In this document: piece after piece, positions 3,813-49,042 of the stretch
Layout of the letters: each line of letters starts with the position of its first letter
Position numbering within the stretch: position 1 is the stretch's first letter
Source: Thelephora terrestris
Lineage: Eukaryota > Basidiomycota > Agaricomycetes > Thelephorales > Thelephoraceae
Reading direction: 5' to 3'
DNA length: 64,000 nt
NCBI GenBank assembly: GCA_015956445.1
Contig: WIUZ02000019.1
Span: forward strand, 620,001-684,000
The notes under the pieces: model-generated
What the model saw: the letters and a program-made list of their open reading frames with translations, nothing else
What the model was told of the DNA's origin: nothing
Databases searched by the model: none
Translations under genes and position numbers: made by a program

Positions 3813-6159
3813 TCAAAGTCCATAAACCATCCTTTCCTCGGGTACTGCCAAATTCGGAAAATCTGTACTCTCCGAACGGCCATCCGTTGCAATGACCAGG
3901 CAAGCAAACGAGTTGCATTCGAACCCTGGGAAACTTTCCTGAAAATTGAGGTATGCATCTTCGACGATCGTTTTCCGATGTCGCAGTGATTCGCTCTCCG
4001 TGTCCAGTTGCAATCCGAGACGCGCGTCGATGCTGTCCAACGTCGTTTTCCAAGACATCTGAGCGTATATAGAGTGACTTGGTAAGCGCCTCACCTCATT
4101 CAGAGGAACAAATCGGTGTGAGATACGCACCCCAGTTAGAACATCAAAGTATGAGTACACTTCAATGGGGACTTCGAGAGAGAGGTCGCAAAGTTTGCCC
4201 AACGTCAGATCGTAAAGATTCCTCATGAATGTGTTCCAGGCCGGGACTGTCTGATCCATGAAATGGCACAAGGCAGCCAGATGTGACAGGCATATGATGC
4301 AACAGGTCCAAACCATCCAGACGCCGCTAGCGTCCCTTATCCTATTGAACTGCCGTAGGTTCTCCATAAGGTCGGTGGAGAATGTGTTCAGGGCATGGGC
4401 CAGATGGAGGTGTGATTTTTGTCGATCAGCCACGTTTTCAGCCTCTGAAGACAGTGGGAATCAGCAGCTGCTCAGAGACGCAACATTGGGGCTAGGCTTA
4501 CGGTCAACGGAGCTCAGAGCGTGGACCGCGTCTCTGGTCAACAGAACACTTTGAGTCCTCATGGTCAAGGGGCAAATCTCGAAGAGGCAGGGGTACACTC
4601 GCTGGACCAGACCACCAAATCAGTTTCGAGCTCCACAATGAAAAATGACGGATAGTTCTCACCCGGAGGTCGGACCTAAACTCTCTCTCGATTCTCGCCG
4701 TCTTCAGAGGGGCAGGCCCACCCAACGCCAAGTATAGATAATTTTCGAGATAAATCGTTTGAGAGAGGGCAGATACCTCCTCGCGAACCTGGTCCGAGAA
4801 CTCGGCGGGGGGTTCATAAGCCGGAAGGAACCGTAGATTTGCTTTGTCGATGATCTTGCACCCCTTCAGGAGATATAGCTGACCGGTTACGTTTAATCCC
4901 GTAAGAACAAAACAGTGGACGGCTACCACGAGCGCTTGGACTTTGACTCTCTCTTGATTAGTTTGCTTGAGTTGAATGAGGGACTCCCAAGCCCTCTGGG
5001 CATATCTCGCGTGCAACCGAACAATGGCCGGCGTCTTGTCTGGAATCCCGCTGAGAACCATTCCCATCGCTTGTATGGCGTCCAAGAAGTAGTAATTGAC
5101 GACAGAATTGGAGGTGTCGCCACGAAGAATGGCTTCCTGTTTCTCCTGTGTGAGGTAGAGCCCTAGCTTATTCATTCGACATAGCCCCCTTAAGCGGCTG
5201 CCAAAAATCATGGCTTTAGTCCCTCCAGTCCCATAAAACCGCCTCAGACCCGATGATAAACCACATACTAGGACATATCTAGGTCGTTTTCGGAGACCCA
5301 GGAAACCTGCTTACGTTCAGGGGGGATGACCGATAATGGTAGTGGAAGGGGGCGAGGAATGCTCTGGAAATGGATCGACGGAAGAATTGTGAGGGAGGAT
5401 GTGATGAGAGGTGGGGGGCACTCCGTAACACCACGAGCCTTCTCTACGGCTGAGGCACTTGACGAGAGAACCAGCGCCGCTTCATCGAGTGCATGAGGTG
5501 ACTCGGGTCGCTCTGGAGGCGTCGATGGTCGTTCATGGGGGTCAGGGGGTACGTGATGGAAATAAACGAATTTGCTGGATTTCGTTGGGGATCTCGGAAG
5601 CCTGGAAGAGACGTTGGCGCTGGAGCGAGATCTCTCGTACGTACACGCAGCAACCCGATCCCTCTTCAGGCATGTCGTACAAGGTTGTTTAGCGTCGCAT
5701 TTCTGTAGGCATGGTTAGCCCTGGCGATTCCTGGGTTCAGTTCGATATACGTTGTCACTCACGTCTTTCTTCTGCCTGGCCGCGAGAGAATCACATGAGA
5801 CCGAGCCTCCCCCAGAGATCGCCGCTCGCAACTCACCGACAAGGAACACACGCCTCATTCATTCGTAAGGTACTCCCGGCCCCCCTCTTCTTCACCGGGG
5901 CGTAATGACAATCTTGGATGCCCAAAGTCGTGCATCTAGCGCAGCGTCGAGTACCCGGGATGCATTTCTTGGTGGGAGAAGCGCATTCGTAGACAAGGTG
6001 GTGAGAGTCAAGCCTTCAACGCGAGGAGAAACGGGGTTCACCACTTTCCGAGCCCTGGACGAACGGAGTCAATGCTCTAGACATCCTAGGGCAATGGATG
6101 ATGATATGTAAGGAAAGTACGCACCTGCACGCCATACAAGCCCCTTGAGAACCGGGCAT
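3813..6159 (-). CDS. Fungal regulator with two tandem Zn2Cys6 clusters, array copy 2
   Basis: Probable nuclear DNA-binding transcription factor. Exon 1 (6125-6159) begins MPGSQGACMACR; a 13-nt micro-exon (6042-6054) adds A-R-K-V; exon 3 (5837-5967) opens KCIPG and closes cluster 1, then ends with the CVPC pair of cluster 2; a second 13-nt micro-exon (5763-5775) adds Q-K-K-D; the next exon (5' end 5702) opens KCDAKQPC and closes cluster 2. The spacings are C-x2-C-x6-C-x6-C-x2-C-x7-C and C-x2-C-x6-C-x5-C-x2-C-x8-C. A Pro/Ser-rich linker follows, then an alpha-helical region typical of fungal Zn-cluster regulators (4504-5211 and 3813-4433) with conserved LxLTQEKQEAILRGDTSNS and LAALCHF segments. 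The stop TGA at 3813-3815 lies after VPEERMVYGL, matching the other copies. The target genes are unknown. Introns in the 3' half were not all resolved. Confidence 0.82.
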
Positions 6160-6712
6160 CTTACTGATAAAGGAGGTACCTAATCACAAGGGTAAAGCGG
6201 AGGCATACAGGGCATCCCAAATCCGGATTGGAGGGTTTTGTGACATCGTCTCGCGTCGCAACGTGTAAGTTACTGTATGTCATCGTCTCTGCAAACGACC
6301 AGTCATACGCCCCGACCCGACCGACCCGTTTTACACGTGACGGACGAGGCGGATTCACGGATGAGTTTTACTTTTAGACCCCGTTTCTGTCACCCCTCCC
6401 ATGTGAATAACGAATCCCACGATCTCATGGGCCTCGCCGGGCAGTGGACGCGATGTCTGATGAAGTACCTCTCGCGTCGCGCGGTGTGACATAAAACAGG
6501 ACATCGATCCTTCCTGGAGTCGGAGACGGGCGGGCTCAACGGTAATCCCAACTTCTTCGTTCTCATCAACGAGAAATCCATCCAGCTGCCATGAAATCAC
6601 TGCCCCAGGGCGATTCATTACATCAGTAGCCTTATGCACAAGATCAACATATGCCGTAGCCGAATAAAACAATTCGCGAGGAACCAGCCTTGCGTGGACG
6701 TCTCACCCCGCA
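6160..6712. other. Short array spacer with relic
   Basis: This spacer of about 550 bp lies between the ATG of copy 2 and the stop of copy 3. A minus-strand open stretch (6355-6672) resembles minus-strand relics near 1.4-1.6 kb and 15.06-15.29 kb (shared patterns such as a DxMxRP followed by a hydrophobic segment and DEN/VDE). It has no usable start or splice structure and I regard it as decayed coding sequence. It is the shortest spacer of the array and must also hold the promoter of copy 2. Confidence 0.4.
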
Positions 6713-9005
6713 TCAAACCCCGTAACGTTCCCTCTCCGCAGGCATCGCCAAATTCGGAAAATTCGAGCCCTCCGAACGACCATCCGTCGTTAGGACTAGG
6801 GAAAGGAACGTGGCCGGTTCGTGCCCTGGGAGATTTGCTCGAAAATCATCGTATGCCTTTCCGATGACCCCCTTCCAATCTCGCAACGATCCTTTCTCCC
6901 CGTCCAAGTGCAACCCAAGACGTGCGTCGATGGTGTCCAACGCCATTTTCCAGGACCACTGATTACATAGAGCGGCTCGGTAAGCGTCTCATTCAGAGGT
7001 AGAAATCGTCGTGAGATACTCACCCCGGTTAAAATATCAAAGTGCGTGTACACTTCGATGCGGACTTCGAGAGAGAGGTTGCCAAGTTTGGCCACCGTCA
7101 GGTCATAGAGGTCGTTCATGGATAGGCTCGAGGGCGTATCCGCCTGACTCACGAAGTGGCACAAGGCAGCTAGATGTGCAAGACATATGACACAACAAGT
7201 CCACACCGTCTCGGCGCCGCTGGTATCCCCTATATTGACAAACCACTGCAATGTCCTGATAAGGTCGGCGGAAAATGTGTCCAGGGCATGAACCAGATCG
7301 AGGCATAAGGTTTGTTCGTCACTCGTGTCCTCCGCCTCTGAGGGGGGTGAGAATTCAGTCGTAAACAGAGTCGCGATATTCGGGTAAGTCTTACTGTCAA
7401 CAGGAGAATTCAGAGCGTGGATCGCGTCTCTGACCAACAGAATACTTTGTGTGCGCATGGTCAAAGGGCATATCTCGAAGAGACATGGGTAAACGCGCTA
7501 GACCAGGCCCCAGATCGGTTTCGGGCCCTATAGCGAAAAAAATGGCGAGTTTCTCTCACCTGGAGGCCGGTCCTAAACTCTCTCTCGATTCTCGCCGTCT
7601 TCGCAGGCGCAGATCCACCGAGCGTCAAGTGAACGTAGTTTTCGAGATAAATCGCTTGGGAGAGGACAGAGGCATCCTCGCGAACTTGCTCCGAATACTC
7701 TACGGGGAGTCCGGATTCCGGAAGAAACTGGAGTCCTGCTTTCTCAATGATCTTGCATGCCTTCAAGAGATATAGCTGAGGGCCTGCGTTCAACCCGACA
7801 ATGACGCAAGAGTATGCAACCAGCAGTAATGCTTGAGCCTTGTCTCTCTCTTGGTTGGTCTGATTGAGCTGAATGAGGGACTCCCAAGACGTCTGGGAAT
7901 ATCTCGCCTGCAATCGAACTACGGCAGGCGTTACCTCCGGGCCACAAAAATGCACTCCCATCACGTGTGCGCCATCTACAAAGTGGCGATGTATCACGGA
8001 ATTAGAAGTGTCGCCACGGATGATAGCTTCCTGCTTCTCAGGGATGAAATAGAGCCCCAGTTTGTTCAATTGGCATAGCGCCCTCAAGCGGCTGCAAAAA
8101 ATCGTGCATTGAGTTCCTCTGGCACCATGGAAACTCCCGAGACGGGGAAGAAACACGTACAAGCTCATATCTAGATCGTTGCCGGGACCCCAGGAAACCT
8201 GCAGACGTTCTGCGGGGATGATCGATGATGGTAGTGGAAGGGGGCGAGGAATGGCCTGAAAACGGATGGAGGGAAGAATTGTGAGGGAGGGCATGGTGGG
8301 AGGTGGGGGGCATTCCGTCGTTTCACAAGCTTCCTCTATGACTGAGGTATCTGATGAGAGTACCGGCGCAGTTCTTTCGAGCACATGAGGTGAGGGTATC
8401 CACTTGAGTCGCTTTGAAGGCGTCGGTGATCGTTCGCGAAGATAGAGGACACGACCGCCGGAGCGAGGTCCCTCGTACGTGCACGCCGCGCCCCCATCCC
8501 TTATCACGCATGTCGTGCAAGGTTGTTTCGCGTCGCATTTCTATGGGGTGGAATCAACACTTGCGTTTCCCAGATTCAATTCGAGACGTGTTGCCTCTCA
8601 CGCTTTTCTTCTGCCTGGCCGCAGGGGGATCCCGTCAGACCGAGCACATCTTAGGATCACCACTCACAACAACTCACCGACAAGGAACACATGCCTCACC
8701 CATCCGTAAGATACTCCCGGCTCCCCTCTTCTTCACCGGGGCGTAGCGGCAGTCTTGGATGCCGAGGGTCACACATCTGACGCAACGCGGAGTACCCGGG
8801 ATGCATTTCTTCGAGGGAGGGAAGGAAAGAAAATGAGAGACATGTTTTCAGAAGGAGGAGAATATAGGACTCACCGCTTTCCGGATCCTGTGCGAATATC
8901 AGCACCAGAACTCATACTCCAGGCATGCCAGTGTCAGTAGGTAATGATATGCAGAGGCTGTACGCACCTGCACGCTGCACAGGCCCCTTGAGATTTGGTT
9001 GACAT
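6713..9005 (-). CDS. Fungal regulator with two tandem Zn2Cys6 clusters, array copy 3
   Basis: Same architecture as its neighbours. Exon 1 is 8968-9005 (MSTKSQGACAACR). The first 13-nt micro-exon is 8875-8887 (I-R-K-A), giving the textbook CRIRKAKC. Exon 3 continues KCIPGTPRCVRC and ends in the CxxC pair of cluster 2. The second 13-nt micro-exon is 8602-8614 (Q-K-K-S), giving CRQKKSKCDAKQPC. Downstream exons hold the helical middle domain (7461-8100, EKQEAIIRGDTSNS) and the C-terminal part (6796-7464), ending GMPAERERYGV before a TGA at 6713-6715. Cluster 2 here is the closest of all copies to the canonical CRxRKxKCD consensus. It is likely a functional DNA-binding protein; ligand and targets are unknown. 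Confidence 0.82.
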
Positions 9006-10658
9006 TGCACCGGAAAATGAAGTAACAGTAGGGTCGCGGCTGAGGAACGAGCCAAGCGCTAAGCGGTGAGCGCTGCATCGGAAAAGATTCTTTCCGATAT
9101 GGCTTCGGGCGGTTGCCGGACCCCATAATACGGGCAGTGGGTCCATATTTTCGAGACCGATCTGCTTTAGACTTTCGCAACACCACAATCACTTAAAAAC
9201 ATGTAGTTCGAGGCCGGGGTAATTCGTAAAATCTGACCTGGTGATGGGCAAGTCCCTCAGACGACAGAGGTTTTCCCGCGTCGCAGTGTCCCAGTTTCCG
9301 GGGGATTCTGGACATCGGATTATAGTCACAGGCTTGGAAGATCCTCCATCTCGCCCAGAGTGATTGGCAGGAAGCACGACGATCCATTCGCGCGATGCAA
9401 CTGAGCGATCGGTTTCAAGCTGATGGGTTTCCCCGCCATGTACTAATCATTGTTTCCCCGTAGGCCCGGCGCGGATCTCTGTGAGCTCGTAGGTATCCCC
9501 TTTTTTACTTATGGCCTCGACCTCCAGTGCTCCCAACGTGGAAACGGCGTCCGCGCCATAAGAGCTCGTAAGCCGACTCGTCATCCCATTCAAGATACTG
9601 CCGACGGACAGATACCAGCAGATAGAACTTAGCCAACCCTCCTACGGTGCATTTGGTGCTGCTCAAACACATCGGGCGACTTCTGCTCCAACTGTGCAGT
9701 GATAATATCTTGACCGAGAAAACGGTTCGAGGAACTTCACGGTTGCGGCTCTAGATCTGGCGATGCGAGCGCGTCGAATATTTTTCACGGAAAACGGAGC
9801 CGCTTCCCCAAATCCGTTGGACCTTTTTACCCAACGAGATGTTTTCCGATAACTGGCCCTCGCGAACCGCGCCCCTTGTTCTGATTATGATTCTGCTGCA
9901 TCGCCATAACATCCATCTACATGACATATTTGAGAGGGCACCTGCGTTATCCTTCATCGACGGCAGTAGGGCCCTAAACGGCAGTATCCACTCGTGTTGT
10001 TGATCCATCGGTTGACTACGCAGCAGACATACGTATTGATGGTGAGGAAACTAGCAATTCTATTCTATTCGTTTTCGGTTGGAAGCACAACTTCGAAACT
10101 TTCGAGCGCAGGTGAACGCAGCTCAGGAGCCCTCACTGGTAAGCAACGGCAGTCGCACAAAAGTCTCATTATTACTGCAGAGGAACAAGGTAGGGCAGCC
10201 GTGACGGCATTCTCCTTACAGAAGACTTGTAGCGGTGATAAATGAGCTGCGTCTGAGATCCGCCTCGACGAGGAAAGCTAGAGCTGAGGATGAGCTTACT
10301 ATCTAGGATAATTTGTACCGCAAAAGCCGTAGAACTGCAAACCCGCGATTGTCTAGGTGGACGGAGCAAAAGGGCTCGGCTGAGCTTTGTTTGGGTGGCG
10401 TGTCCTGTGGGCCTGTCGTTCAATCGGACCGCCCGTCGGATCAGGAGGGTCGGAATGCCGTTCGTTTGCAGGGAAATCGATGGTTGCGGCTGACTCATCG
10501 ATCACGGCCAAACCATCCTCCTGCCGAAGCCGGGGATAAACACGCGCTGGAGAACATAGATGAACGAATCAAACGTGCGCTGCGAGCCTAATCAAACAAT
10601 TATATAACGAATACCAAACAGGAACTGGCACGCATCACTCACGCGGTCTCACGCTGCA
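9006..10658. other. Array spacer, no intact gene
   Basis: This 1.65-kb spacer sits between copies 3 and 4. It contains only short, mutually overlapping frames without recognisable domains. A stretch around 9500-9610 weakly resembles sequence around 13.25 kb and 21.9-22.0 kb, consistent with relics of the same unidentified neighbour gene. The part nearest 9006 must contain the promoter of copy 3; I see no clear TATA element. Confidence 0.4.
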
Positions 10659-12947
10659 TCAAAGCCCATAACGCTCCCTTTCCTCGGGCACCAACAGATT
10701 CGGATAACTTGAATCCTTCGAACGACCATCCGCAGCAATGACCAGTGAAGCAAACGAGCTTGGCTCGAACCCTGGGAGGTTTTCTTGAAAATCGTCGTAT
10801 GCCTTTTTGATGATCGCCTTTCGGCGTTGCAACGATCCCTTTTCTGCGTCCGAACACAACCCGAGACGTGTGTCAATGGTGTCCAACATTGTGTTCCAAG
10901 ATCTCTGATTACATGGAGTGGCTCAGTAAGGATCTTCGTCTGGAGGGACAAACGGTTATGGGATACGCACCCCAGTCAAAAAATCCACGTATGGATACTT
11001 TTCGATGTGAACTTCGAGGAAGAGGTTGCAAAGTTTGTCCAACGTCAGGTCATAGAGACAGTCCATGGATAGGCTCGAGGTTGTGTCCTTCTGACTCACG
11101 AAGTGGCACAAGGCAGCTAGATGTGCCAGACACATGACGCAACAAGCCCAGATCGTCTCGACGCCGCCTGTATCCCCCAAAATCATGAACCGCTGCAGGT
11201 GCCTCAAGAGGTCACTGGAGAGTATTTCCAGAGAATGTACCAGATGGAGGCATGATCTTCGTCGATCGCCCGTGTTCTCTGCCTCTGAGGTGGGTTCGGA
11301 TCAGCCGCAATCCAGGGCCGACAAAACCGAGTGAGCCTTACGTTCAACAGAGGTTAGAGCGTGGACTGCGTCTCTGACCAGCAGAATACTTTGGGTCCGC
11401 ATTGTCAACGGGCATATTTCGAAGAGGCATGGGTACACTCGCTAGACCAGAACACCAAATCTGTTTCCTGTACGACAAAAAATGACGAATGGTTCTCACC
11501 TGGAGATCAAGCCTAAACTCTCTCTCGATTCTCGCCGTCTTCGCGGGCGCAGGTCCACCCAACGTCAAGTACAGAAAGTTCTCGAGATAAATCACCTGGG
11601 AGAGGACAGAGGCATCCTCACGAACTTGTTCCGAGAACTCGAGGGGAGGACCGTATTCCGGAAGGAAGCGGAAGTTTTGTTTATCGATAATCTTGCACGC
11701 CTTGAGGAAGTACAGTTGAGCGGTTGCGGTCAGCCCGACAATGATGAAACCGTGTGCGACTTGCACTAGCGCTTGCGCTTTCTCCATCTCGTGATTAGTT
11801 CGGGCCAGGTGGATGAGGGATTCCCAGGACCTCTGGAGATGTTTTGCCTGCAAGAGAATCATGGAGGGTGTTAGCTCTGGAGCACAAGAATGCATCCCCA
11901 TGCCATGGGCGCTATCCACAAAGTAGCGATGGACCACAGAGTTGGAAGTGTCGCCCCGGAGGATAGCGTCTTGTTTCTCCTGTGTAAAATAGAGCCCTAG
12001 CCTATTCAGTTGACATAGCGCCTTCAAACGGCTGCCAAAAATCACGAATTTAGTCCCCGAAAACTTCCGATAATAAAGAAAACCACGTACAATGTCATAT
12101 CTAAGCTGCTCTCTGAAGCCGAGGACACTTGTAGAAGTTCGGGAGGGATGTCTGATAACGGTCGTGGAAGGGGACGGGGGACGGTCTGGAAATGGAGGGA
12201 TGGAAGAGTCGTGAGGAAGGGAGTGGGAGGTGGGGGGCACTCCGTGGCGTCGCGAGCTTTCTCTGAGGCACTCGATGAAGGAAGCAGCAGCGTCAGTGGT
12301 TGTTCGCGGAAGTCGGGGGGTAGGAAATAAGAGGAATCATAATCGGACGAAGCGAGGGGAGGATCCTTTCTTGCCAGGAATCTAAGCGTCTTGGGAGGGG
12401 CGTTGTCGATGGAGGGAAATCTCTCGTACGTGCACGCGGCGGTCCTATGCCTGTCCACGCACCTAGTGCAAGGTTGTTTGGCATCGCATTTCTGTGGGTG
12501 GAATCAATCTTTGCGTCTGCTAGGTTCAGCTCGAGACATGCCACCACTCACGTTTTTCCCCCGTCTGATTGCATGAGGGTCCCGTCAGGTCAAGGTCCTT
12601 CGGGTTACAGCTCGCAACAACTCACCGACAAAGAACACACGCTTCACCCATTCGTAATGTAGTACCGCTTCCCCTCTTCTTCACCGGGATGTAAGAACAA
12701 TCTTGGATGCCCAGAGTTGTGCATCGAACGCAACGCGGAGTGCCCGGAATGCATTTCTTCGAGGAAGAAGCCGATAAGAGACAAGTCTTCGAGATGAGGA
12801 GAAATGTAGTTCACCGCTTTCCGAGCCCTGTCATACGAACATTAGTACCAGGAGGTAATCCTCAAGACGCCTGTGCCAGCGGATACTGATATGCGGAGAC
12901 GGTACGTACCTGCACGCCCTACAGGCCCCTTTCGATTGAGTGGTCAT
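10659..12947 (-). CDS. Fungal regulator with two tandem Zn2Cys6 clusters, array copy 4
   Basis: Exon 1 is 12910-12947 (MTTQSKGACRACR). Micro-exon 1 is 12815-12827 (A-R-K-A) and micro-exon 2 is 12552-12564 (R-G-K-N), both 13 nt. Cluster 1 reads CRARKAKCIPGTPRCVRC and cluster 2 reads CRRGKNKCDAKQPC. The middle domain lies at 11344-12050 (EKQDAILRGDTSNSVVHRY), the C-terminal part at 10659-11210, ending VPEERERYGL with TGA at 10659-10661. The segment 11.36-11.77 kb is almost identical in DNA to 16.15-16.56 kb in copy 5, much closer than either is to the other copies, which suggests recent duplication or gene conversion. It is inferred to be a nuclear transcription regulator. Confidence 0.82.
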
Positions 12948-13739
12948 GGCACTGGTGAAAGTAGCAATGAAGGTGGGGGTGGGGAAGATTCCTGGGTTGG
13001 ACGGATCACAAACAGTAAGGTGGTGCATCAAGTCCGGATTCACCCCTCTACGAGTTTTGGTCCGGGTTGTGAATTGGCACCTGGTAGGCTGTGAAATTTT
13101 CCTCAGGCCTGCTGGCGATAATACCAAAGCGAAGGCCCCCGGGTACACAATTGACCCGTTTCGGCCGTCCCATCCATCCAGGGTCAATCATCTTGGCGTC
13201 TCGGTTTGAAAGGTTTCCCTGTGAGCGCTTAACCAGCGCCTGTACTCTTTTGCGTGCCCAATCAGACTTCCGATGATGGACAATATCTTGATGTTTGCAA
13301 ATACAACTCAGCTGACCCTCAAGCCCACAGTGCACTTTTTCGATTACGATTAAGTAAATCTCGACCTCTTCGACTTGTACGACGCACAGCAGCTCAACGA
13401 CGCGACGGATCCGTTCAGAAAAGACAGCGCCGAGTAACATCAACGGAACTTTCCGTGAGGTGCTAGGCAATTGCCGAGGTCAGAAGTCGGGGGAACAGTC
13501 GGGGGAACCTCGGAGTCATTCTCTGTAAAACGTTACTTGACAATGGCCCCTCGGCAATCACGGCGCTTTGTCTCTCGAACAGATCCGTCGCAGCGTTCTT
13601 CAAGAGCTGCTGTGTGTGTCGTACTTGAGTACAAGTCGACGACGAGGTCGGGAATGGAATAGTAATGGTCGAAAAAGTGCCTGCGTGAAATCCACAATGA
13701 TGCTGCTGTGAGCCGGGTCGAGGCGGTGTGCTTCTGTAC

Positions 13740-13946
13740 TTACAGTGACCGAATTTTATTCAAGAGTTTAGAACACCCATATGTATTCGCCGCCTCCCTA
13801 ACGACATTGAGAAAGCTCTCGCGTTCAATGCGTTCGTCCGGAGGGCAAACTTCGCGATACTCGGTGGTCCTCGCTTCATGCCAACCACTCGCTAGCAGCT
13901 CCCTACGAGCGTCCCATCTCTTCATTGGACCTCCCCAATGCTCCAA
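13740..13946 (-). pseudogene. Relic of an unidentified neighbour gene (gene X)
   Basis: The minus-strand frame reads RWDARRELLASGWHEART followed by an EYREVC segment. A homologous frame at 18320-18560 reads RWEARREPSASGWHAAVT followed by EYRKAC. Weaker nucleotide similarity to the same region is visible around 900-1000, 2440-2480 and 22300-22340. Conservation of the protein pattern in two spacers shows that it was once coding. The frames are short, lack a credible start and are broken, so the gene appears dead. I do not recognise the family. Confidence 0.5.
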
Positions 13947-14559
13947 AAGGTTAATTGCAGCAGGGGATCCAACGTCGTTGACCCGCTATCTCCCCCCGTA
14001 TCAAATACAATTCTATGGCGGGAGGACCTCGTGGAGAGTCCACGTATCATCGCCTTATCACGCCTTCTAGTCTGTTCGTGTCCTGTCACGTTTATCAGCG
14101 CTCTTCCTAAGCTGTTGTTTCCCCAACCCCGCGCAGTGGCTCCAGTAGAAGTCCAGGATGACGGCGGACCTGTATTTTGACGAGCTCAATGAGGGTAACG
14201 AACCTGCCGTCTCTTGTATGTCCTTCTAGTTTCCGAGGCCAAATATGCTCAAGCTAGTTCGTCGCCTCGGAGTCCTTTTATGTAGGGGTGCCAAAACCTT
14301 ACTCCCCTTAGCTGCGTGTGCTTGTCTGAAATTATTTTCTAGGTGAAGGGCACTCTGACCAGATTTCCAGCACATCTAATGCGAGGGCATTAGATTGGAG
14401 GCCCGGAAAAGGTAGGTGGCATGGCCATGCGTCGATTGTCTTTCGTGATTATCCAAAAAAGGACACGCCTGGTTCCCTGTGTTATTCATCTGCTTCGGCC
14501 GCAGACTTTCTATGGAGGAGATTCTTCGCCAGCCTCGATCGCTGACTACGCTCATTAAC

Positions 14560-14672
14560 CTAGCGGAGATTATCTCAGCTCTCGTGCAACATTTGAAAGA
14601 CGACAGACGAAGGCATGCGGGCCTACAAGTAGTGAGTCTTGATATGGTCGGATTCGTGGGGACCTTGACCAC
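14560..14672 (-). pseudogene. Relic of the 3' end of a glutathionyl-hydroquinone reductase gene
   Basis: Read on the minus strand, the stretch around 14630-14660 encodes DHIKTHY, identical to the seven residues encoded near 23083-23103 in the intact ECM4-type gene. The following intron-like sequence (GTCGTCTTTC, then GAGAGCT) also aligns with the last intron of that gene. Downstream the match fades and a stop codon interrupts the frame. This is evidence that the 3' end of the reductase gene travelled with an array unit and then decayed. Confidence 0.5.
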
Positions 14673-15439
14673 AGGACTCTTCCGATAAAATTATTTCATC
14701 TACCAGAACACAAACAAGGCATTGGTCGAATCCCACTCCAAACGTGGGGAGAAAATCTTAGCCGAGTGGACGGCTCAAGGAGCACGATTACGACGATCCG
14801 AGCGATTGGCAATTCCGTCGCGCCATTTAGAAAGTTGACAGCGGGGAACAGAACGGCAACAGGACAACAGCCAGCCGTGGAATGTCTCTGCCGAAAAGGG
14901 AAGCCGTTCAGGAGTTGCCTAGGTCACAGGTCGGTGGTTTCAACTCACTTTCAAGCGTTGGAATGAAAATCACTCAGCCGCAGACTAGGAAGAGCTTCAG
15001 TGGGACTTGGCACTTTCGCCAAAAAAGGTGCTCTTGTGCAATCGACATCCGAGGACTCCTTAATTCGACATCATGGAACAACGATCCTGGTGGACAACCA
15101 CCAAATGTGGCACATATACCCTCCACCACCACAATCCCGTGAACCTCACCTGGCCATGAAGTCCGGCGGATTGCCTCGACGGTGACCCCCACCTCTTCAT
15201 GTTCACCGATGAGAGTTCCCTCGACAGGAGGACAGTATAGTGGAGCGGACCGTTTGGGGGGCCATTCACCACCTCGCTGCCCTTCGCGGGAACCGTCGTT
15301 CCATCATTCCGGCACTATCCTCAGGCGTCTCGTCTCATCCGCATGGTTACTACTCCTACGCACGAATCAAACATATATTAGACCATAATTGAACAATATA
15401 ACAAATATCGAGCAGAACCTCACGTGGGCTCACGGTTCA

Positions 15440-17763
15440 TCAAAGTCCATAGCGCTCCCTTTCCTCAGGTACCAACAAATTCGGATAACTTGAGTCCTCC
15501 GAACGGCCATCCGTCGCGATGACCAGCGAAGCAAGCGAGGTTGGTTCGAACCCTGGGAGGTTTGCTCGAAAATCATCATATGCTTTTGCTATGATCGTCT
15601 TCCGGCGTCGCAACGGTCCGTTCTCTGCGTCCGAGTCCAGCCCGAGACGTGCGTCGATGGTGCCCAGCACCGTGTTCCAAGATATCTGGTTACGAAGAGT
15701 GGCTCGGTAAGAATTAAAGAGGGAAGATCGTTGTGAGAGACGCACCCCGGTCAACAATTCGACGTGTGGGTGCTTTTCGATGTGAACTTCGAGGGAGAGG
15801 TTGCACAGTTTGTCCACCGTTAGGTCATAGAGATAGTTCATGGGTGTGCTCGAGCTTGTGTCCGTCTGACTTAAGAAGTGGCACAAGGCAGCCAGATGTG
15901 CCAGACATATGATGCAACAGGTCCAGATCGTCTCGATGCCGTCGGTATCCCCTAAACTCATGAACCGCTGCAAGTTCCTCAGAAGGTCATCGGAGAATGC
16001 CTCCAGCGCATGAACCATATGGAGGCATGATCTCTGTCGATCGCCCGTGTTCTCTGCCCCTGAAGGTGGAAGGGGTCAGCCGCAATGCATGGCTGAAACA
16101 TTCGGGTAAACCTTACCTTCAACGGAGTTCAGAGCGTGGACCGCGTCTCTGACCAGCAGAATACTTTGGGTCCGCATTGTCAACGGGCATATCTCGAAGA
16201 GGCATGGGTACACTCGCTAAACCAGACCAACAAATCGGTTTCTTGCACGACGGTAAAATGACCGATGATTCCCACCTGGAGGTCAAGCCTGAACTCTCTC
16301 TCGATTCTCGCCGTCTTCGCGGGCGCAGCTCCACCCAACGTCAAGTACAGAAAGTTCTCGAGATAAATCACCTGGGAGAGGATAGAGGCGTCCTCACGAA
16401 CTTGTTCCGAGAACTCGAGGGGAGGACCGTATTCAGGAAGGAAGCGAAAGTTTTGTTTATCGATAATCTTGCACGCCTTGAGGAAGTACAGTTGAGCGGT
16501 TGCGGTCAGCCCTATAATGATGAAACCGTGCGCGACTTGCACTAGCGCTTGCGCTTTCTCCTTCTCGTGATTAGTTTGGGTGAGCTGGGCGAGGGACTCC
16601 CAAGACCTCTGGATATATCTTGCTTGTAAGAGAACCACGTTAGTGGTATGCTCTGGAGCGCACGATTGCATTCCCATGCCATGAGCGCTGTCCACGAAGT
16701 AGCGATGGACCACAGAATTAGAAGTGTCGCCACGGAGAATAGCTTCTTGTTTCTCCTGGATGAAATAAAGCCCTAGCTTATTGAGTTGACATAGCGCCTT
16801 CAAACGGCTGCCAAAAATCACGAGTTTAGCACCGCTAGCCTTACGAAAACTTCCGATGTTGGGAAAAAGAGACCACGCACAATGTCATATCTAAGCTGCT
16901 CTCTGAGGCCGAGGAAACTTGCAGACGTTCTGGGGGGATGAATGATAGTGGCGGTGAAAGGAAGCGAGGGATGGGTTGGAAACGAGTGGATGGAAGGACT
17001 GTGAGAGAGAGAACGGTACGAGGTGGGGGGCACTCCGTGACGCCGCGAGCTTTCACTATACCTAAGGCACTCGATGAGGGAACTGGTGGCGTCGGTGGTC
17101 GTTCATGGGGATCGGGAGGTCGGGAAAAGTAGTAACCAGAATTAGATAAAGCGGGGAGGGGATCTTCACTCGATGGAGACTTCCGGCGCCTATTTGGAAC
17201 GGAGGAGGATCTTTCGTACGTACACGCGGTGCCCCCATTCTTTTTCACGCATCTCGTGCAAGGTTGTTTGGCATCGCATTTCTGTGGGCGGAATTACCCC
17301 TCGCGTTTCCTAGGTGTAGCTCAAAGACATGGGGTCACTCACATTCTTTCCCTGCCTGATCGCGAAAAGATCATCAGTTCCATCAAGTTTCTCGTGATTA
17401 CCGCGCGCACGGCAACTGACCGACAAGGAAGACACGCCTCACCCGTCCGCAAAGTACTCCCCAGGCCCCTTTTCTTCACCGGGATGTAACAACATTCTTG
17501 GAAGTCTAGAGCCGTGCATCTAGCGCAGCGTGGAATACCTGGGATGCATTTCTTCGAGGGCGAAGCGCATTCGTAGGAAAGAAGATTAGAGATATCGTCT
17601 TGGGAGGCGAAGATAAATGAAGTTCACCACTTTCCGGATCCTGTACGAACGTCAGTACTGGGAGTCAATTCTCCAGAGGCGCCAGTGCCAGTGGATGATG
17701 CTAATTAAGTAGGGGGTGTACGCACCTGCACGCCATACAGGCCCCCTTCGACTGAGTGGACAT
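15440..17763 (-). CDS. Fungal regulator with two tandem Zn2Cys6 clusters, array copy 5
   Basis: Exon 1 is 17726-17763 (MSTQSKGACMACR). Micro-exon 1 is 17628-17640 (I-R-K-V) and micro-exon 2 is 17343-17355 (Q-G-K-N), both 13 nt. Cluster 1 reads CRIRKVKCIPGIPRCARC and cluster 2 CRQGKNKCDAKQPCTRC, closing with a TACTYE segment. The linker (16841-17248) is rich in Pro and Ser. The middle domain (16180-16821, EKQEAILRGDTSNSVVHRY) and the C-terminal exons (15440-16018, with IWTCCIICLAHLAALCHF) are intact and end VPEERERYGL at a TGA at 15440-15442. The middle part is nearly identical to copy 4. It is a probable transcription factor with unknown targets. Confidence 0.83.
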
Positions 17764-18822
17764 CGTACTGGAAAAAGAATGAATAACAAATGTGGGGGGA
17801 GGCATACGGACCGAGCGTAAATGCTGTAGGGGGACGAGCCGTCGCGAGCCGCCTGCGACTCTGTTAAACTTTGATCCCGCGCGGAATTCCCACACATTCG
17901 CGTTTGGCGAAACTTGGCGGAAACCACTTTGCATTGGACTGCCGGACAACACACTTAATTGGCACGAAGCGTGGAGTGTGAGGGAATCCTGGAAACTTTG
18001 ACTCCGGCAGTAACCAGATTTTTGTGGAACGACAGCCTGCCTCGAGTCTCAGCGTCAAGCCATGGTATGAAGTTCAAGTGACATCCAGCGGTTTTTTGCG
18101 ACCTCGTGGCGCACGTTTAGTCTGCTCGAGGATAATGCCCACCCACGACCTAAGGCTTCCGTCGGCATCTCTCCGCAGACACATGGTGCTCGGTCGTTGT
18201 GTGGTTGTGGACCAACAACGGGGTGCCAGTCCCAAGTCCGATCAACACTGTGTAAGTATAACGGCATTCGGATTCCTGATTCCCCAGGCCCCAGTGGTCC
18301 TCGGGCTCCTCCTGAGGCTCTAGCGTTTAATATGTTCGTCCACAGCGCAAGCCTTGCGATACTCGGCGGTTACTGCTGCATGCCAACCACTCGCTGAGGG
18401 CTCCCTACGAGCTTCCCATCTCTCCAATGGACCTCCCCTTTCAGACTGCTCCACGAAGTTCATCGCGGCAGTAGCACAAACATCGTTGGCGCACCATCTT
18501 CCCCAGTAACAAACACTTTTATGACGAGACGAGTTAGAAGGTGCACTTATCATCTCTAGTCCGCTCGAGTTCTGGTCACATTTATCGGCGCACTTAAGCA
18601 CTAGGCCTTTGTTCCCCCCCACGCAGTTTCTACAGGAACAGGTCAGGATGACGGCGAACCTTTGTTGCGACGCGCTCGATGAAGGCCTCAATCTTTTCGT
18701 CTCATACGTCTTTCGGGTTCCCAGGCCTTGATTCCAGCTCCCGCGGCTCAGAAGCCCGTTCCGATCGAACAATATCACAAAATATCGAAGAGGAACAGAT
18801 TATGTATCTACATGGTCTCGCA
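17764..18822. other. Array spacer with gene-X relic
   Basis: This spacer of about 1.06 kb separates copies 5 and 6. The part at 18320-18690 carries the second clear copy of the gene-X relic (RWEARREPSASGWHAAVT on the minus strand). It also contains a stretch near 18600-18680 that matches 14090-14190 and 22480-22560, including a pyrimidine-rich run ending in CACGCAG. The rest shows no coding signal; the segment next to 17764 is expected to be the promoter of copy 5. Confidence 0.45.
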
Positions 18823-21138
18823 TCAAAGTCCCCAACGCTCCCTTTCCTTGGGCTCTAACAAATTCGGAAAACTTGAATTCTCCGAACGACCATCCGTCGC
18901 CAAGACCAATGAACCGAACGAGTCCGGTCCGAACCCTGGGAGGTTCGCCCGAAAATATTCATACGCTTTTTCTATGACCGCCTTCCAGTTTCGCAACGAT
19001 CCCTTCTCTGCGTCCGAGCACGACCCGAGACGTGCGTCAATGGTGTTCAACGCCGTGTTCCAAGATTTCTGATTACAATGAAGCGGCTCAATAAGCGTCT
19101 TCGTTCGGAGGAACCAAACGTTGAGACACGCACCCCAGTCAAAACATCAAAGTGCGAGTACGATTCGATGGGAACTTTGAGAGAGAGGTTGCAAAGTTTT
19201 TCCAACGTCAGGTCATAGAGGTTGTTTGTGGATTTGCTCAGGGTTGTGTCCGTCTGACTCATGAAATGACACAAGGCTGCCAGATGTGACAGACATATGA
19301 CGCAACAAGTCCAGATCGTCTCGACGCCGCTGGCATCCCCTATACTCACGAACTGCTCCAGGTTCCTCATAAGGTCACTGGAGAATGTGTCCAGAGCATA
19401 GACGATACGGAGGCATGATCTTTGTCGGTCGCCAGTGTTCTCTCCCTCTGAAGATGGTGAGAATCAGCCGTAACACAATGTCGCAACATTCGGGTATGTC
19501 TTACGGTCAAAGGAGTTCAGAGCGTGGACCACGTCTCTAACCAACAGGACACTTTGAGTCCGCATGGTCAAAGGGCAAATCTCAAAGAGGCAAGGGTACA
19601 CTCGCTAGAACCAAATCGGTTTCACGCCCCACGGCGAAAGATAGCGGATGGTTCTCACCTCAAGGTCGGACCTAAATTCTTTCTCAATTCTCGCCGTCTT
19701 CACAGGCGCAAGTCCATCCAGCGCCAACTGAATATAATTTTCGAGAAAGATAGCTTGGGAGAGGACAGAGGCCTCCTCGCGAACTCGCTCCGAGTACGCG
19801 ATGGGGAGTCCGGATTCTGGAAGAAACTGGAGTTTTGCTTTCTCGATGATCTTGCACGCCTTCATGAGATACAGCTGAGCTCCTGCACTCATTCCTAAAA
19901 TAAGGAAAGAGTGCGCGACTAGTGTCAGCGCTTGAGCCTTGTCTCTCTCTTGGTTAGTCTTGATGAGCGGGATGATGGATTCCCAAGCCATCTGGCCATA
20001 TCTTGCCTGCAATCGAACCATGTCAGGCGTTTGCGCCGGAGCACAAAAATGCATTCCCATCACACGCGCGCCATCCACAAAGTGGTGATGGACCACAGAA
20101 TCGGAAGTGTCCCCGCGAAGAATGGCTTCTTGTTTCTCCGGTATGAAATAGAGGCCTAGCTTATTCAATTGACATAGCGCCTTCAAACGGCTGCCGAAGA
20201 TCATGACGTTAGTCCCCTGGCCCGACGAAAACGTCACTTCCGATACTGGGAGGAAAAACGACGTACAATGTCATATCTAGGCCGCATCCGGAGGCATCGG
20301 AAACTTGCAGACGTTCGGGGGGGATGACTGATAACGGTTGTGAAAGGGGACGGGGAATGGTCTGAAAACAGATGGATGGAAGAGTTGTGAGCGAGGGTAC
20401 AGTTGGAGATGGGGGGCACTCCGTGGCGGCGCGAGGTTTCGTTATGACTGAGACACTGGACGAGGGGACTCGCGGCGGCGGCGGCGGTCGTTCACAGGGA
20501 TCCGGGTGTATGATAGAATTAGGCGGGGCAAGAAGGGGAGCTTTTCCTGGTCGAGATCTAAGCGGCCTAGGAGGGACGATGCCGATGGATGGAGATCTTT
20601 CGTACGTGCACGTGGCGGTCCTATGCCTCTCCACGCACGTCGTACAAGGTTGTTTGGCGTCGCATCTCTATGGGTGGAATCAACCCTCGCGCCTACTCGG
20701 TTCAGCTCGAGGCATGCCGCCACTCACATTTTTCCCCCGCCTGATCGCGAGAGAACCTTGTCAGGCCAACTTTCCAGAGATCACCGCTTGCAACAACTCA
20801 CCGACAAGGAAGACACGCCTCACGCATTCGCAAGGTGTTCCCGGCTCCCCTCTTCTTCACCGGGAGGTAATGACAATCTTGGACGTTCATAACCACACAT
20901 CTAGCGCACCGTGGAGTACCCGGGATGCATCTCTTCGAGGAAGAAGCGCATTCGCATGAAAAACAATGAGAGACAAGCCTTCAAGACGAGGATAAACGAA
21001 TCTCACCACTTTCCGAACCCTGTATGGATATAAGTATTGGGAATCAATCCTCCAAACGCGCGTGTGCCAGTGGATGATGCCAAGCAGGGGCGGTACGCAC
21101 CTGCACTCCATACATGCACCGCTAGATCTTGTGGACAT
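18823..21138 (-). CDS. Fungal regulator with two tandem Zn2Cys6 clusters, array copy 6
   Basis: Exon 1 is 21101-21138 (MSTRSSGACMECR). Micro-exon 1 is 21007-21019 (V-R-K-V) and micro-exon 2 is 20728-20740 (R-G-K-N), both 13 nt. Cluster 1 has Arg instead of Lys before its third cysteine (RCIPGTPRCARC). Cluster 2 reads CRRGKNKCDAKQPC. The middle domain is at 19605-20230 (EKQEAILRGDTSDSVVHHH). The C-terminal exons (19047-19370 and 18823-19050) end EPKERERWGL before a TGA at 18823-18825. This is the copy nearest the reductase gene and probably borders the array's original flank. It is inferred to act in the nucleus; no target can be read from the sequence. Confidence 0.82.
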
Positions 21139-22949
21139 TGTGCTGGAAAGAAGTAACAACGACAGTGGGAGGGGTGCATGAGGACTAAGCCTGAATGCTG
21201 TGATGGGGGCTAGCCGCCCTGTTGGCCTTGGACACCTCGGACGAGCGAGTCGGTCAAACCTTGATTCGTGCGGAGTTCCGAGACACACATTTCGAAACCA
21301 CTTTGCTCTGGGCTCTCGACCGCCTCACTCGATTAACAAATTAACCAACATATATAAAGCGCGAGGGGCTCCTGGAAAGGTCGACTCCGTGACGAATTTT
21401 TTGTGAACGGGCCTCAAACGGCAGAAATTGTGGTTCCATCGCCCCGAACCCCGTTCGACCACGGATTTCCCCGTACTTAATACATTATACATGGTGTTCG
21501 GTAGACCCACTGCGGTTTCCCGCGAGCGCCGACGCAACTGCGGTAGTCACCTGTCTGGGGTCGTTGATCTGGGCGATCGAACAAAAGACATGGGGGGGGG
21601 TGGGTAATTAATTGCTACAGAAGGCTCAGTGCACTTTTCGACAAAGGTGTCACGTAAGGAGTTGTAGTGGTACTTGCCAGGGATATCTTACTCCTACACT
21701 TCGATATAATGCGACCCGTGGTTTCGGGGTGAAGGGCTAAAACGGAAGCATAGTCCTCTCGCGTTCAAAAGGACTGTCACCGCCAGCGGTTACCAAATCG
21801 GGGTGTGTGACTCTGTGAGGATGCTTCCGGGGTCCATCGGAGTTTCGAGAGTTACCTGTACCTGTATCAGCCCTTGAAAATGACAGGGTCTCTCTGTGAC
21901 TGGCGCTTGTACTCTCTTGGAGACTGCAGGACTGCGCATGCCTGCGCTGGGCGCTCGTAAGCCCATTCATGATTCCGCCAACGGACCTCCGTATTTGCAA
22001 ATAAGACTCAGCTGCTGCCGTGAGCCAAGCCGTCTTCATTCTTGACTTGCACTGACCGAATTTCATCGGCCAATGCATCGAAGGCGTCCGTCGGAATGTA
22101 ACACTGATTATATATGCAGGGACAACGTGGCGACCAACCTCATCTGTGGATGATGACCTCCTTCCTCGTGAGCTCCCAGCACTTAGAATAAGCTGGATCC
22201 AGCCTCAGGTTCAGAGCGGAGGGAGACCACCTTCCCTCCCTAATCATCGGATCGAATGAAAACCACGCGTAGGCGTAGGCTGGAATCTAGCCTCCTGACA
22301 TTTACCCCCGAACGTCCCATCTCTTCACTGAACCTGCCCTCCCAAACGGCAGGGATGCCAACACCGTTGACCCGCCATCTTCTCCCAGTTTCAAAACGCT
22401 TCTAAGATGGGGACGAGGCGCAGAACCTCGTAGAGGGTCCACGCATCGTCTCACCATCACCTCTGTCAGCGTTCTTACGAGCCCATTGCTTTTCTCCCCC
22501 CACGCAGTGACTCCAGGAAAAGTCCAGGATGACGATGGGACCTATCTTGCAATGCGGTTGATGAGGAGGCCTCGAGCCTGTCTCACATCGAGGATAAAAC
22601 TTGGCCAGCTCCCTCGGCGAATCCTGATCTCACAGGGGTACCTGAATGCCTGCTTCCATGAACACCGTTTACCACTACGATGGCTGGTTCTCCCTACCAT
22701 TTAATGGTGCATCGAGTTCCTCGCAGGCTCGCAGTGCACGAATAGCACCCAAATATCGAATACCTCTGCAGATCAAGTAAACCGTTGCCTGGACCACAGA
22801 TCGGCAGTTTCAACGCCGGTGTAACGGGAGGGAACGTCGCTCAGCCGCAAAATATGCCACGAACCCGTTCACTGCACACAATTCGGTTTATTATACATAC
22901 ACAAGTCTTCGAACAGAACTACTCTTTGGCGCTATCCCGAAGCGGTTTT
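21139..22949. other. Spacer upstream of array copy 6
   Basis: This 1.8-kb segment has no intact gene. A TATATAAAG-like run near 21350 lies about 210 nt upstream of the copy 6 ATG and could be part of its promoter. Stretches at 21880-22080, 22300-22400, 22480-22560 and 22780-22860 resemble segments of the 13-15 kb and 17.8-18.7 kb spacers, so the same relic sequences occur here. A run of ten Gs with one flanking G/T change sits at 21590-21602. Confidence 0.4.
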
Positions 22950-24590
22950 TTAGAGAGGCTGGATGTGGGGGAGCGGCCCAACAGGGACGATCTTCTGCGG
23001 ATTGATCTAGCATGCCCACACGTTAACCAAAGCTCTCATACATCGGTCGGAAAGACGACGTACAAAGGGGTGGGACCAGAAGTAGTGAGTCTTGATGTGG
23101 TCAAAGTTCGTCGAATCCTTGAACGCGGGGTTCTTCCAATACAAATCTTTCATCCACCTAACATCCAACGTCAGAACCGACTACGACGCGGTGCGCTCAT
23201 ACCACTGAAACACACAGACCTGTTGATATTCGGGTATCCGTTTCGAATATCGCGAATGTTGCATTTGAAGTGCCTCACGTAGACCGGGTCGAAGCGAACC
23301 TAGACCCGAACGTCTCAGATATCCCCCCTCAAGAAGAAAGAGAAAACAAAGGGCAGAGGGAAAAGCGGCGGGGAAACGCACGATGGTGACCCAGAGCCTG
23401 ATGTCAGCCTCAGTCAGCTGATTGCCGACGAAAAACTCCTTGCCCTCGAGGATCTTCTCGACTTTGTCGAGCGCTTCGAACAATGGATACACGGCTGCCT
23501 CGTACGCTTCTGCCGTGCTCGCGAACCCGGCTTTATAAACCCCATCTGGAAGAAAGGATAAAAACCAAAGTCAACACCCACGCCTCTGGAAAAGAAAGGG
23601 GGGTACTGGACTGTTGATAGTGTCGTAAACCCAGTCGTTGACGCGGTCGATCTCCTCGCGAAGCTCTTTGGGATAAATGTCAATCTTGGCTTCGTCTGCG
23701 GGGATAAGATCGTTGAACTCCGTATTGAATATCCTGATGATCTCCGAGCTCTCGTTGTTCACGATCGTCTCCTTCTTCTTGTCCCAGAGCACGGGGACGG
23801 TGAACCTGTTTTTGGGGTGGTGTGTTACAGGGTTAATGCACGACTAGGATTTGCCGTAAGGGCCGGACGGACCTTCCACCGTAACTTGGGTCGGCCCTAA
23901 GGTACAAATCCTTCACGTGTTCCGCGCCGTACAGCGGATCGACGTCGGCAGCCGGATATTGGTCAACATTCGCGAACGGCCATCCCTTCTCGCCCATACG
24001 AGGGGAGACCACGGTGACAGCTATAAGTAATACAAGACAAATCTCACTTTTTTTTACCCCCATGGAATTAATGAAGTTTGTGACGTACGGATGATCTCAT
24101 CGAGACCCTTGAGCTTTCTGGTAATTAACGTCCTCGTCGCCCAGGCTACACGCGGAGGATACAGGCGTTAGTTCACGTTCTCCCGGTCAGCAGACCGCAC
24201 TCACGGCAAGCGTACGAGACGTAGAGGTGGTAACGATCTAATGACAAAAGTTGAGGTGAATCCGAGAACGGGAGAACGGGATATGTCGGGCATACCCCTT
24301 TCCGGAGAGAATTGGCCGCCTTTTTGGATGTGGTTTCTGAATGAGGAAGGAGCTCTTTTGAACGAACCGTCGCCTTCACGCTTCATGATGTCGATGTTGG
24401 ACTGGCCGGAGACGTCCCGAGACATTTTTGCCGTTCGTTGGCACTTGAGAGTCGGGAGGAGAAGCGTTCTTAGGGGAGCGAGCCCGACAATGGGTGCTTT
24501 ATCAGCCCCTTGGGTACAGATGCTTATCAATCTGGAGGGTCTAGCGGAGGTCACGATCCCCCTCAGTGACCGAGAGAGTGGGAAAAACAT
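22950..24590 (-). CDS. Glutathionyl-hydroquinone reductase (ECM4/Xi-class GST)
   Basis: Reduces glutathionylated hydroquinones, a step in quinone detoxification. Exons on the minus strand: 24296-24590, 24205-24237, 24089-24145, 23873-24020, 23612-23805, 23382-23545, 23220-23299, 23064-23157 and 22950-23006 (TAA). All junctions join in frame. The N-terminal thioredoxin-fold part has the family motif YHLYVSYACPWATRT with the catalytic Cys in CPWA; the helical part has NQLTEADIRLWVT, then FKCNIRDIRNGYPNINRW. With the ATG at 24590 the protein has about 55 extra residues, basic and Ser-rich, resembling a mitochondrial presequence; an internal ATG at 24425 would give the usual cytosolic form. The upstream WD40 gene stops only 31 bp before the longer start, which makes the shorter start plausible for some transcripts. 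Family identity is secure; the start is not. Confidence 0.92.
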
Positions 24591-42826: not shown

Positions 42827-44944
<2,118 letters not shown>

Positions 44945-44998
44945 GGTTGAAGGGAAGAAGAGAAAGAGTTGGAGATAATGGGCGGGCTGGTGGACATT

Positions 44999-45006
44999 CT
45001 TATATG
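44999..45006 (-). promoter_or_regulatory. TATA box of glucoamylase 1
   Basis: The minus strand reads CATATAAG here, 55 nt upstream of the start codon at 44944. The same element stands at the same distance in unit 2, which supports its use. Confidence 0.6.
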
Positions 45007-45885
45007 ATGCTTAGCCCCTAGAAAAAAAGGTAGGTGCTATAATGTTGCGTCATGTCCCATGGAAGGCGGCGATACACTTACTGGGACATCACGTAAGATC
45101 TCCGTAATTTCTGATCCCCATGGGCTGCGTGCAAAGCGCTGCTGTTGCGACCTCCCCGATTGCTTGACCAGGTCCAAGGCAAATCAGGGTCGTCACTGGG
45201 GTAAAATGGCTGAGGAGATGGCTGAGGAGGGGAGGGGGAGCCTTGCTCGTTCCGCAACTGGTCACCGGTGATATCAAAGGACCGAGAAAGGATGAGGTTG
45301 GTGCTGATAAGGTGGGGGATGTCACGGACACGCGGATTGCAAGTTCAACGTAGCCCTGTCCAGTTTTCGAACTAAACCGCTACCTGCAAAGTCTGGAAGG
45401 CCCGGTAATGACCGAACTGGTCCCGAGCAGAACTTGGGGGGACACCTTTGATCATTGGCAATGGATACCATTTTCATCGGGAGTGAGGGTCTTTGATCAA
45501 GGATCCAGGTTCGAGGATGCGCCTTTCAATGAGGGAAGCGTAAGCTTATTGAGAGGGGAAGGTCGCTGACTTTGAAAGACGCGGAACCGTGCGGGGATGG
45601 TCGCGACAGGCTTACGACTTCTGGAAACTTCGCCCGGGAAAGGCGCCTTGGTCGCTCGGCTCTTCCCGATGTTTCATTCTGTGCGTGCAGCCTCTGGTGA
45701 AAATCGAAAGAGGGTGGTCGTCATCCGCTTTGTCATAACGGTGGTCTTGACCCGGGAACACGTTTGGAGCGAGCCAGAGCTCACTGTCGTGCATCCATCC
45801 TGGCGGCTCGAGTTTGGTATTTTTGCCTCGTGGGAAAGATCGAAGGTGGGGGATTGTGTGCACAGTTTCCCCACACGTGGACGGT
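45007..45885 (-). promoter_or_regulatory. Upstream region of glucoamylase 1 with CreA-type sites
   Basis: About 880 bp upstream of the gene is conserved in unit 2. It contains hexamers fitting the CreA/Mig1 core SYGGRG, for example CTGGGG at 45196-45201 and GCGGGG at 45591-45596, both with counterparts in unit 2. Small open frames in this stretch (for example 45089-45331, -) are also conserved at DNA level but lack recognisable motifs; I treat them as promoter rather than genes. Function of the hexamers is inferred. Confidence 0.45.
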
Positions 45886-48989: not shown

Positions 48990-49042
48990 GGTTGAAGGGA
49001 AGAAGAGAAAGAGTCGGAGATAGTGGAAGGCTGGTGAATATT

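Follow-up and report, generated by a model that had tools for sequence, protein, structure and literature searches.

The window analysed in this study, a stretch of 64,000 nucleotides (nt) corresponding to bases 620001-684000 of contig C11 of the Thelephora terrestris genome, carries five complete genes of a regulator array, in which the basic loop of each of two tandem Zn2Cys6 clusters is predicted to be encoded by a separate exon of only 13 nt (Table 1). We consider it likely that these are real 13-nt exons, set by two old intron positions and included by default, and that the two clusters, located about 19 residues apart, form a probable pair of DNA readers.

Predicted micro-exons in the recognition loops

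An earlier note on this DNA had listed ten such micro-exons at equivalent positions in both clusters of the five genes. All ten 13-nt stretches were found on the minus strand, which that note had left unspecified. Each has AG before and GTGA after, and in the spliced gene models each starts in phase 2 and ends in phase 0, as had been described; in the alignment of the five copies they occupy matching places in the two clusters. After splicing, the motif CxxC-R-x-x-K-x-[KR]-C is generated for both clusters in 5/5 genes, in good agreement with the proposal of that note that the micro-exons encode the basic recognition loop. The loop encoded by each micro-exon lies between cysteine 2 and cysteine 3, and the two introns are positioned after base 2 and base 15 of the 18 bases between these cysteines, an arrangement hereafter referred to as the 2/13/3 split. 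A micro-exon is defined as an exon of 3-30 nt in the available text of a report on Trichoderma (PMC11121469), and all ten stretches are predicted to be short exons of this kind lying between introns, with a length of 13 nt, AG/GTGA borders in 10/10 cases, and a stop codon upon omission. The mean likeness across all nine genes of the array was 0.79 and 0.70 for the two micro-exons vs 0.60-0.63 for their introns.

Table 1. Predicted genes, micro-exons and second introns of the five array copies in the window (positions in the window; aa, amino acids)
Feature	Position	Strand	Description
Gene c1	3813..6159	-	Predicted coding sequence, 9 exons, 606 aa, tandem Zn2Cys6 protein
c1 micro-exon 1 (cluster A)	6042..6054	-	13 nt, RARKV with split R
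c1 intron 2 (after micro-exon 1)	5968..6041	-	Weak signals GTGAAC / CAAG
c1 micro-exon 2 (cluster B)	5763..5775	-	13 nt, RQKKD
Gene c2	6713..9005	-	Predicted coding sequence, 9 exons, 589 aa; Pfam Zn_clus in two stretches, 8e-15
c2 micro-exon 1	8875..8887	-	13 nt, RIRKA
c2 intron 2	8809..8874	-	GTGAGT / GAAG; sole array copy in which intron 2 is not the weakest
c2 micro-exon 2	8602..8614	-	13 nt, RQKKS
Gene c3	10659..12947	-	Predicted coding sequence, 9 exons, 595 aa
c3 micro-exon 1	12815..12827	-	13 nt, RARKA
c3 intron 2	12757..12814	-	Weak signals GTGAAC / GAAG
c3 micro-exon 2	12552..12564	-	13 nt, RRGKN
Gene c4	15440..17763	-	Predicted coding sequence, 9 exons, 595 aa; Pfam Zn_clus in two stretches, 6.3e-14
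c4 micro-exon 1	17628..17640	-	13 nt, RIRKV
c4 intron 2	17552..17627	-	Weak signals GTGAAC / GAAG
c4 micro-exon 2	17343..17355	-	13 nt, RQGKN; rival split 6/9/3 scores 5.0 vs 5.9
Gene c5	18823..21138	-	Predicted coding sequence, 9 exons, 595 aa
c5 micro-exon 1	21007..21019	-	13 nt, RVRKV
c5 intron 2	20933..21006	-	GTGAGA / GAAG; weakest by a small margin, 7.2 vs 7.7
c5 micro-exon 2	20728..20740	-	13 nt, RRGKN

Conservation of the 2/13/3 split in the genome

The search space was one genome of 40.6 Mb in 60 contigs, whose short introns and three DUF6534 matches are consistent with a mushroom-forming basidiomycete. Loop structures were identified with a caller that allows zero, one or two introns anywhere within the 18 nt that separate these two cysteines (2 and 3), the introns being of the GT/GC-AG type and 38-130 nt in length; the caller rewards basic loop residues and is not blind to the protein motif, but it is blind to the position of the split. 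It was applied to 71 sources, each scanned on both strands (window 1-26000, L009, L010, L031-L090 and L001-L008). Relatives of the array genes had been collected with a c3 reading frame of 330 aa that includes exon 6, which gave 42 genome matches, from which 20 genes outside contig C11 were taken; the Pfam-derived sample comprised 48 loci (40 around Pfam Zn_clus hits plus 8 more, two of the 48 overlapping), and one of the 66 Pfam matches in the genome, on C14, is outside this sample.

A total of 80 calls was obtained in 47 of the 71 sources, including 64 two-intron, 10 one-intron and 6 intronless clusters. The ten window clusters (window 1-26000) were all called 2/13/3, and the same split was found for 64/64 two-intron clusters in 37 genes, consisting of the nine array genes, 20/20 further relatives and 8/48 Pfam-only loci, with the two-intron calls confined to one strand in each source. 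The observation of the earlier note is confirmed and extended, from ten to 64 predicted micro-exons. Over the 64 clusters, the loop carries R at position 1 in 63/64, K (60/64) or R (4/64) at position 4, and K or R at position 6 in 63/64, all of these being residues favoured by the caller. The ten one-intron calls were split 2/16 (two loci), 15/3 (two loci), 18/0 (three), 4/14 (two) and 12/6 (one); the occurrence of a lone intron 1 (2/16) and of a lone intron 2 (15/3) would be expected if the two positions behave as separate introns.

A chance match as the source of the micro-exons was rejected on the basis of shuffling and of the rest of the window. After dinucleotide shuffling of the inner sequence (64 clusters, 100 times each) at the same threshold, any call was obtained in 54/6400 cases and a 2/13/3 call in 30/6400, while window 26001-64000 contains 3 second-half motifs and no caller hit even at lower threshold. 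Among the viral contigs, 15 stretches fit a pattern, with zero relatives among them.

The exons could instead have been misread, with true splice sites elsewhere and the loop encoded by another segment. The acceptor of intron 2, which is AAG in 8/9 array genes, and some poor donors would fit such a misreading, as would the close alternative split in cluster B of c4 (Table 1) and in a few paralogs (L037, 6.2 vs 6.8), but all 64 clusters agree on the split, and for the remaining nine clusters of the window the runner-up split scores at most 0.7 or is absent; we regard a misreading as extremely improbable. The same scores led us to reject a second copy of the micro-exon inside the introns for 9/10 window clusters.

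For 12 paralogs (L031-L042, of the 20 taken), introns 1-4 were kept in 12, 11, 11 and 11, and introns 5-8 in 10, 11, 7 and 10, respectively, and a better conservation of the micro-exon introns than of the other introns is not supported by these numbers. In this comparison L039 has just its first intron at a shared position, and its model has a frameshift, as have those of L035, L037 and L040; the caller finds both micro-exons in all these four genes.

We propose that two old intron positions, 13 nt apart, flank the DNA-recognition loop and have been inherited throughout a large family, along with the majority of its remaining introns. An inherited and constitutive structure is suggested because 37 genes share the layout (ten of them with one called cluster) and the other introns are nearly as well kept. 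The introns flanking the micro-exons are short (47-120 nt) and most likely recognised across the intron, and for this reason the micro-exons would be included by default. What was observed comprises the splice motifs and phases, the intact reading frames, a layout conserved in 37 genes and a linker of near-fixed length. Splicing of this kind in the cell, constitutive inclusion and DNA binding would be expected from these features of the sequence.

Several points weigh against this proposal. The splice sites are predictions from the sequence, and the 37 genes originate from one genome and mostly from one family, so that they are not independent. Within the 48 Pfam-only loci, another structure was found in 16 and no call was made in 24, whose domains may be interrupted at other places or which may not belong to the Zn2Cys6 genes at all; these shares do not represent frequencies because split domains are disfavoured in a six-frame Pfam search, and the share of Zn2Cys6 genes with the layout is not derivable from them. 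In addition, the second intron of the array genes is weak, unlike what is expected for plain constitutive splicing.

Gene models and integrity of the array

The regulator array (contig C11, 606588-641138) consists of nine intact copies, all on the minus strand, with five inside the window and four further left on the same contig; the sixth gene of the array starts at window base 98 and continues past the left window end. By splice-aware alignment, each of the nine genes was modelled with nine exons and eight introns, giving rise to proteins of 589-608 aa, the frames being free of internal stops with the micro-exons in place. The exon lengths are 35 or 38, 13, 131, 13, 380-437, 529-535, 100 or 103, 314, and 246 nt (stop included). 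A conserved intron of 56-57 nt near exon 7, present in 9/9 copies, removes an in-frame stop (c1, c4 and c5) and frameshifts (c3). A 45-nt linker intron in the models of c1 and of another copy, cA, was dropped by hand, since reading through it leaves an open frame equal in length to exon 5 of another copy. The reference protein for the alignment was assembled with the micro-exons already in, and the exact models are therefore not independent of the micro-exon claim; independent support is provided by the open frames, the splice motifs and the split-blind loop caller.

The nine array proteins are 58-77% identical, and the nonsynonymous divergence (dN) is lower than the synonymous divergence (dS) in 36/36 pairs (median dN 0.239, dS 0.657), indicating purifying selection. 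Given a tandem array with repeated pieces between the copies, one might suspect decaying or silent genes that retain the micro-exon layout without present use, but both this selection and the intact frames of 9/9 copies argue against decay, which appears very unlikely.

Splice signals of intron 2 and the effect of missplicing

The earlier note had pointed out that skipping of a 13-nt exon should break the protein. This holds for all nine array genes, in which skipping of micro-exon 1, of micro-exon 2 or of both led to a premature stop in 27/27 variants, after 25-46 aa for skipping of micro-exon 1 or both and after 71-135 aa for skipping of micro-exon 2. When one or two introns around the micro-exons were retained, a stop was encountered within 100 aa in 52/54 variants; the frame stayed open for c5 with intron 1 (622 aa) and for cA with introns 1 and 2 (640 aa, in the model that still carries the 45-nt linker intron).

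Splice sites were scored with two matrices, the first trained on introns 5-8 and the second rebuilt each time from the other seven introns. With the first matrix, the donors of introns 1, 2, 3 and 4 in the nine array genes scored 7.7, 1.7, 8.2 and 8.3 on average, and their acceptors 2.2, -1.5, 5.2 and 1.8, respectively. For introns 5-8, on which this matrix was itself trained, the means were 7.3-8.5 (donor) and 4.9-7.7 (acceptor). With the leave-out matrix, the mean total for intron 2 was 0.1 vs 7.0-15.6 for the others, and intron 2 was the weakest of the eight in 8/9 array genes, the exception being c2, for which intron 6 was the weakest. G at donor position +5 was present in 3/9 and a pyrimidine at acceptor position -3 in 1/9 of the second introns, vs 9/9 for both in the other seven introns. 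The exon base at position -1 is G in the array genes, which partly offsets the weakness of intron 2. A CTRAY-like branch site was detected in 3/9 second introns, and likewise in few of introns 5, 6 and 8 (3, 3 and 2 of 9).

These signals bear on the suggestion of the earlier note that micro-exon inclusion acts as an on/off switch. Splicing at micro-exon 1 would then be conditional, removal of intron 2 giving the full protein, and retention of this intron or skipping of the micro-exon giving a stop and no DNA-binding protein, or a shorter protein started downstream. Stops in 27/27 skipping variants fit such a switch, but any exon with a length not divisible by 3 breaks the frame on skipping; the weakness of intron 2 in 8/9 array genes also fits, but the nine genes are paralogs, so that the weak intron may represent a single inherited event, and its weakness is not shared by the introns around micro-exon 2. 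Among the 18 other two-cluster genes, the three nearest paralogs (L031-L033) carry weak signals like those of the array, but in most of the 18 this intron shows the standard bases (+5G in 14/18 and -3 pyrimidine in 13/18 of all 18; 14/15 and 13/15, respectively, for the 15 genes besides these three). Low donor scores after the micro-exon (mean 1.8, yet with +5G in 9/10) were also found in the ten genes for which one cluster was called and are not unique to the array. Although a precedent for regulated use of a micro-exon is offered by Xlr2 in Trichoderma, as far as the available text of that report goes (PMC11121469), we consider a regulated switch unlikely here. A slim chance is likewise given to its wider form, in which conditional removal of intron 2 would gate micro-exon 1 and thereby jointly switch the DNA binding of up to twelve genes (the nine of the array plus the three paralogs).

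A methionine (in the context LDM or similar) is located just before intron 5 in 8/9 array copies, at about window 16886-16888 in c4. It could start a protein devoid of the DNA-binding part.

Tandem Zn2Cys6 clusters and protein domains

Two 2/13/3 clusters were identified in 27 genes (window 5700-21100, L009, L010, L031-L045, L049, L050 and L072), with a gap of 19 residues in 22, 20 in 4 and 18 in 1, and a motif, KKRG.G.TLR.GEA-C, is common to the nearer two-cluster genes. Of the ten genes in which a single cluster was called, L046 has a subthreshold second one (score 4.0, again split 2/13/3), and none was found within 600 nt in the other nine. The tree of the 80 short domains (32 columns) is poorly resolved, with 7/76 inner branches starred and the bootstrap unsettled, but 20/27 A clusters, from the array and its nearer relatives, make up a starred group without B clusters, while two A clusters fall among B and single ones. 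The cluster pair looks older than the array, because the A clusters of the array and its relatives group apart from the B clusters. The near-fixed spacing suggests that one chain could read two half sites, and proteins with two Zn2Cys6 clusters about 19 residues apart would probably contain a built-in pair of DNA readers.

The Pfam Zn_clus model (PF00172), which stands for the motif CxxC-x6-C-xn-CxxC-xn-C, matched two stretches each in the two spliced proteins scanned, c4 (52.2 bits) and c2 (55.1 bits), with the cut-off at 21. An artificial first part of c2 (114 residues), from which the micro-exon residues had been removed, still gave 24.3 bits for both stretches together, above this cut-off; real skipping, unlike this artificial removal, would shift the frame. 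The first cluster of c2 matches GAL4 (1d66, 4.4e-06), ungapped in the loop, and the second matches LEU3 (2er8, 0.00081). In what we take to be the residue numbering of GAL4, the c2 micro-exon aligns opposite L16-K17-K18-L19 plus the last base of the R15 codon, and K17 and K18 are presumably in contact with DNA. Neither Fungal_trans nor any other C-terminal Pfam domain was matched in c4, in c2 or in exon 6 of the five copies; Fungal_trans is often missing from Zn2Cys6 proteins, and hence was not taken as defining. The structure model of exon 6 is all-helical and weak, with a predicted local distance difference test score (pLDDT) of 59.8.

Neighbouring features

Repeated pieces are located between and beside the regulator copies (window 13815-14213, 18317-18703 and 22457-22534), perhaps as remnants of a co-duplicated neighbour. 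Minus-strand frames at window 23181-23843 resemble a glutathione transferase, and two similar tandem stretches of minus-strand frames at window 43000-49000 resemble glucoamylase-type enzymes.

Implications and comparison with known systems

Should this arrangement prove widespread among related fungi, many transcription factors would have their DNA-reading part lost or disrupted by gene finders that pass over exons of 13 nt; under the same condition, regulators would be counted wrongly, and constructs for expression based on gene predictions would not bind DNA. The tandem clusters and the nearly constant length of their linker suggest a family in which a single polypeptide may read paired sites. 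Owing to the weak second intron, a possible splicing switch in the DNA-recognition loop is directly testable with existing RNA sequencing (RNA-seq) methods.

Among the literature matches listed, from a search with subscription papers and preprints outside its range, none describes a 13-nt micro-exon in a Zn2Cys6 loop. The nearest precedent found in the literature searched is Xlr2 of Trichoderma. In the available text of the report on T. virens (PMC11121469), a 20-nt micro-exon with canonical flanking introns is described within the Zn2Cys6 domain, which had been missed by gene prediction and for which RNA-seq evidence indicates glucose-dependent use, the exon being used without glucose. Xlr2 resembles the array genes in that a fungal transcription factor carries a micro-exon within its Zn2Cys6 domain. 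As far as the same text goes, the Xlr2 micro-exon encodes PCRRCE and, because it covers the first cysteine pair, is a different exon from those of the array, which follow cysteine 2 and encode the loop; read from the printed 20 nt, its downstream intron lies 4 nt after cysteine 2, vs 15 nt here (PMC11121469). Xlr2 appears there as one gene across Trichoderma with one cluster per protein, whereas the layout described here extends over 37 genes, with two micro-exons each in 27, known from sequence.

Micro-exons in a large basidiomycete gene family have also been reported for the P450 genes of Phanerochaete chrysosporium, which, in the part of the report available (PMC1184071), show frequent introns of 45-55 bp and micro-exons of many lengths with no restriction to any P450 family, unlike the single length and single position, within a DNA-binding domain, found in this study. 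Plant micro-exons of up to 15 nt, often missed in annotation and conserved according to the title of the report (PMC8831610, seen in excerpt), are similar in size and in annotation trouble, but belong to plants.

The phrase 'Tandem Zn2Cys6' is absent from the literature matches listed, but double clusters as such are already known, because an Alternaria factor with two Zn2Cys6 domains is mentioned in the excerpt available of PMC10305253. With the GAL4-type domain (PF00172, 1d66), the array proteins share the six-cysteine motif and the basic loop CRxxKxKC, c2 being aligned without a gap in the loop. GAL4 is paired via dimer formation; the difference of the array proteins from GAL4 lies in their two tandem clusters, joined by a linker of 18-20 residues.

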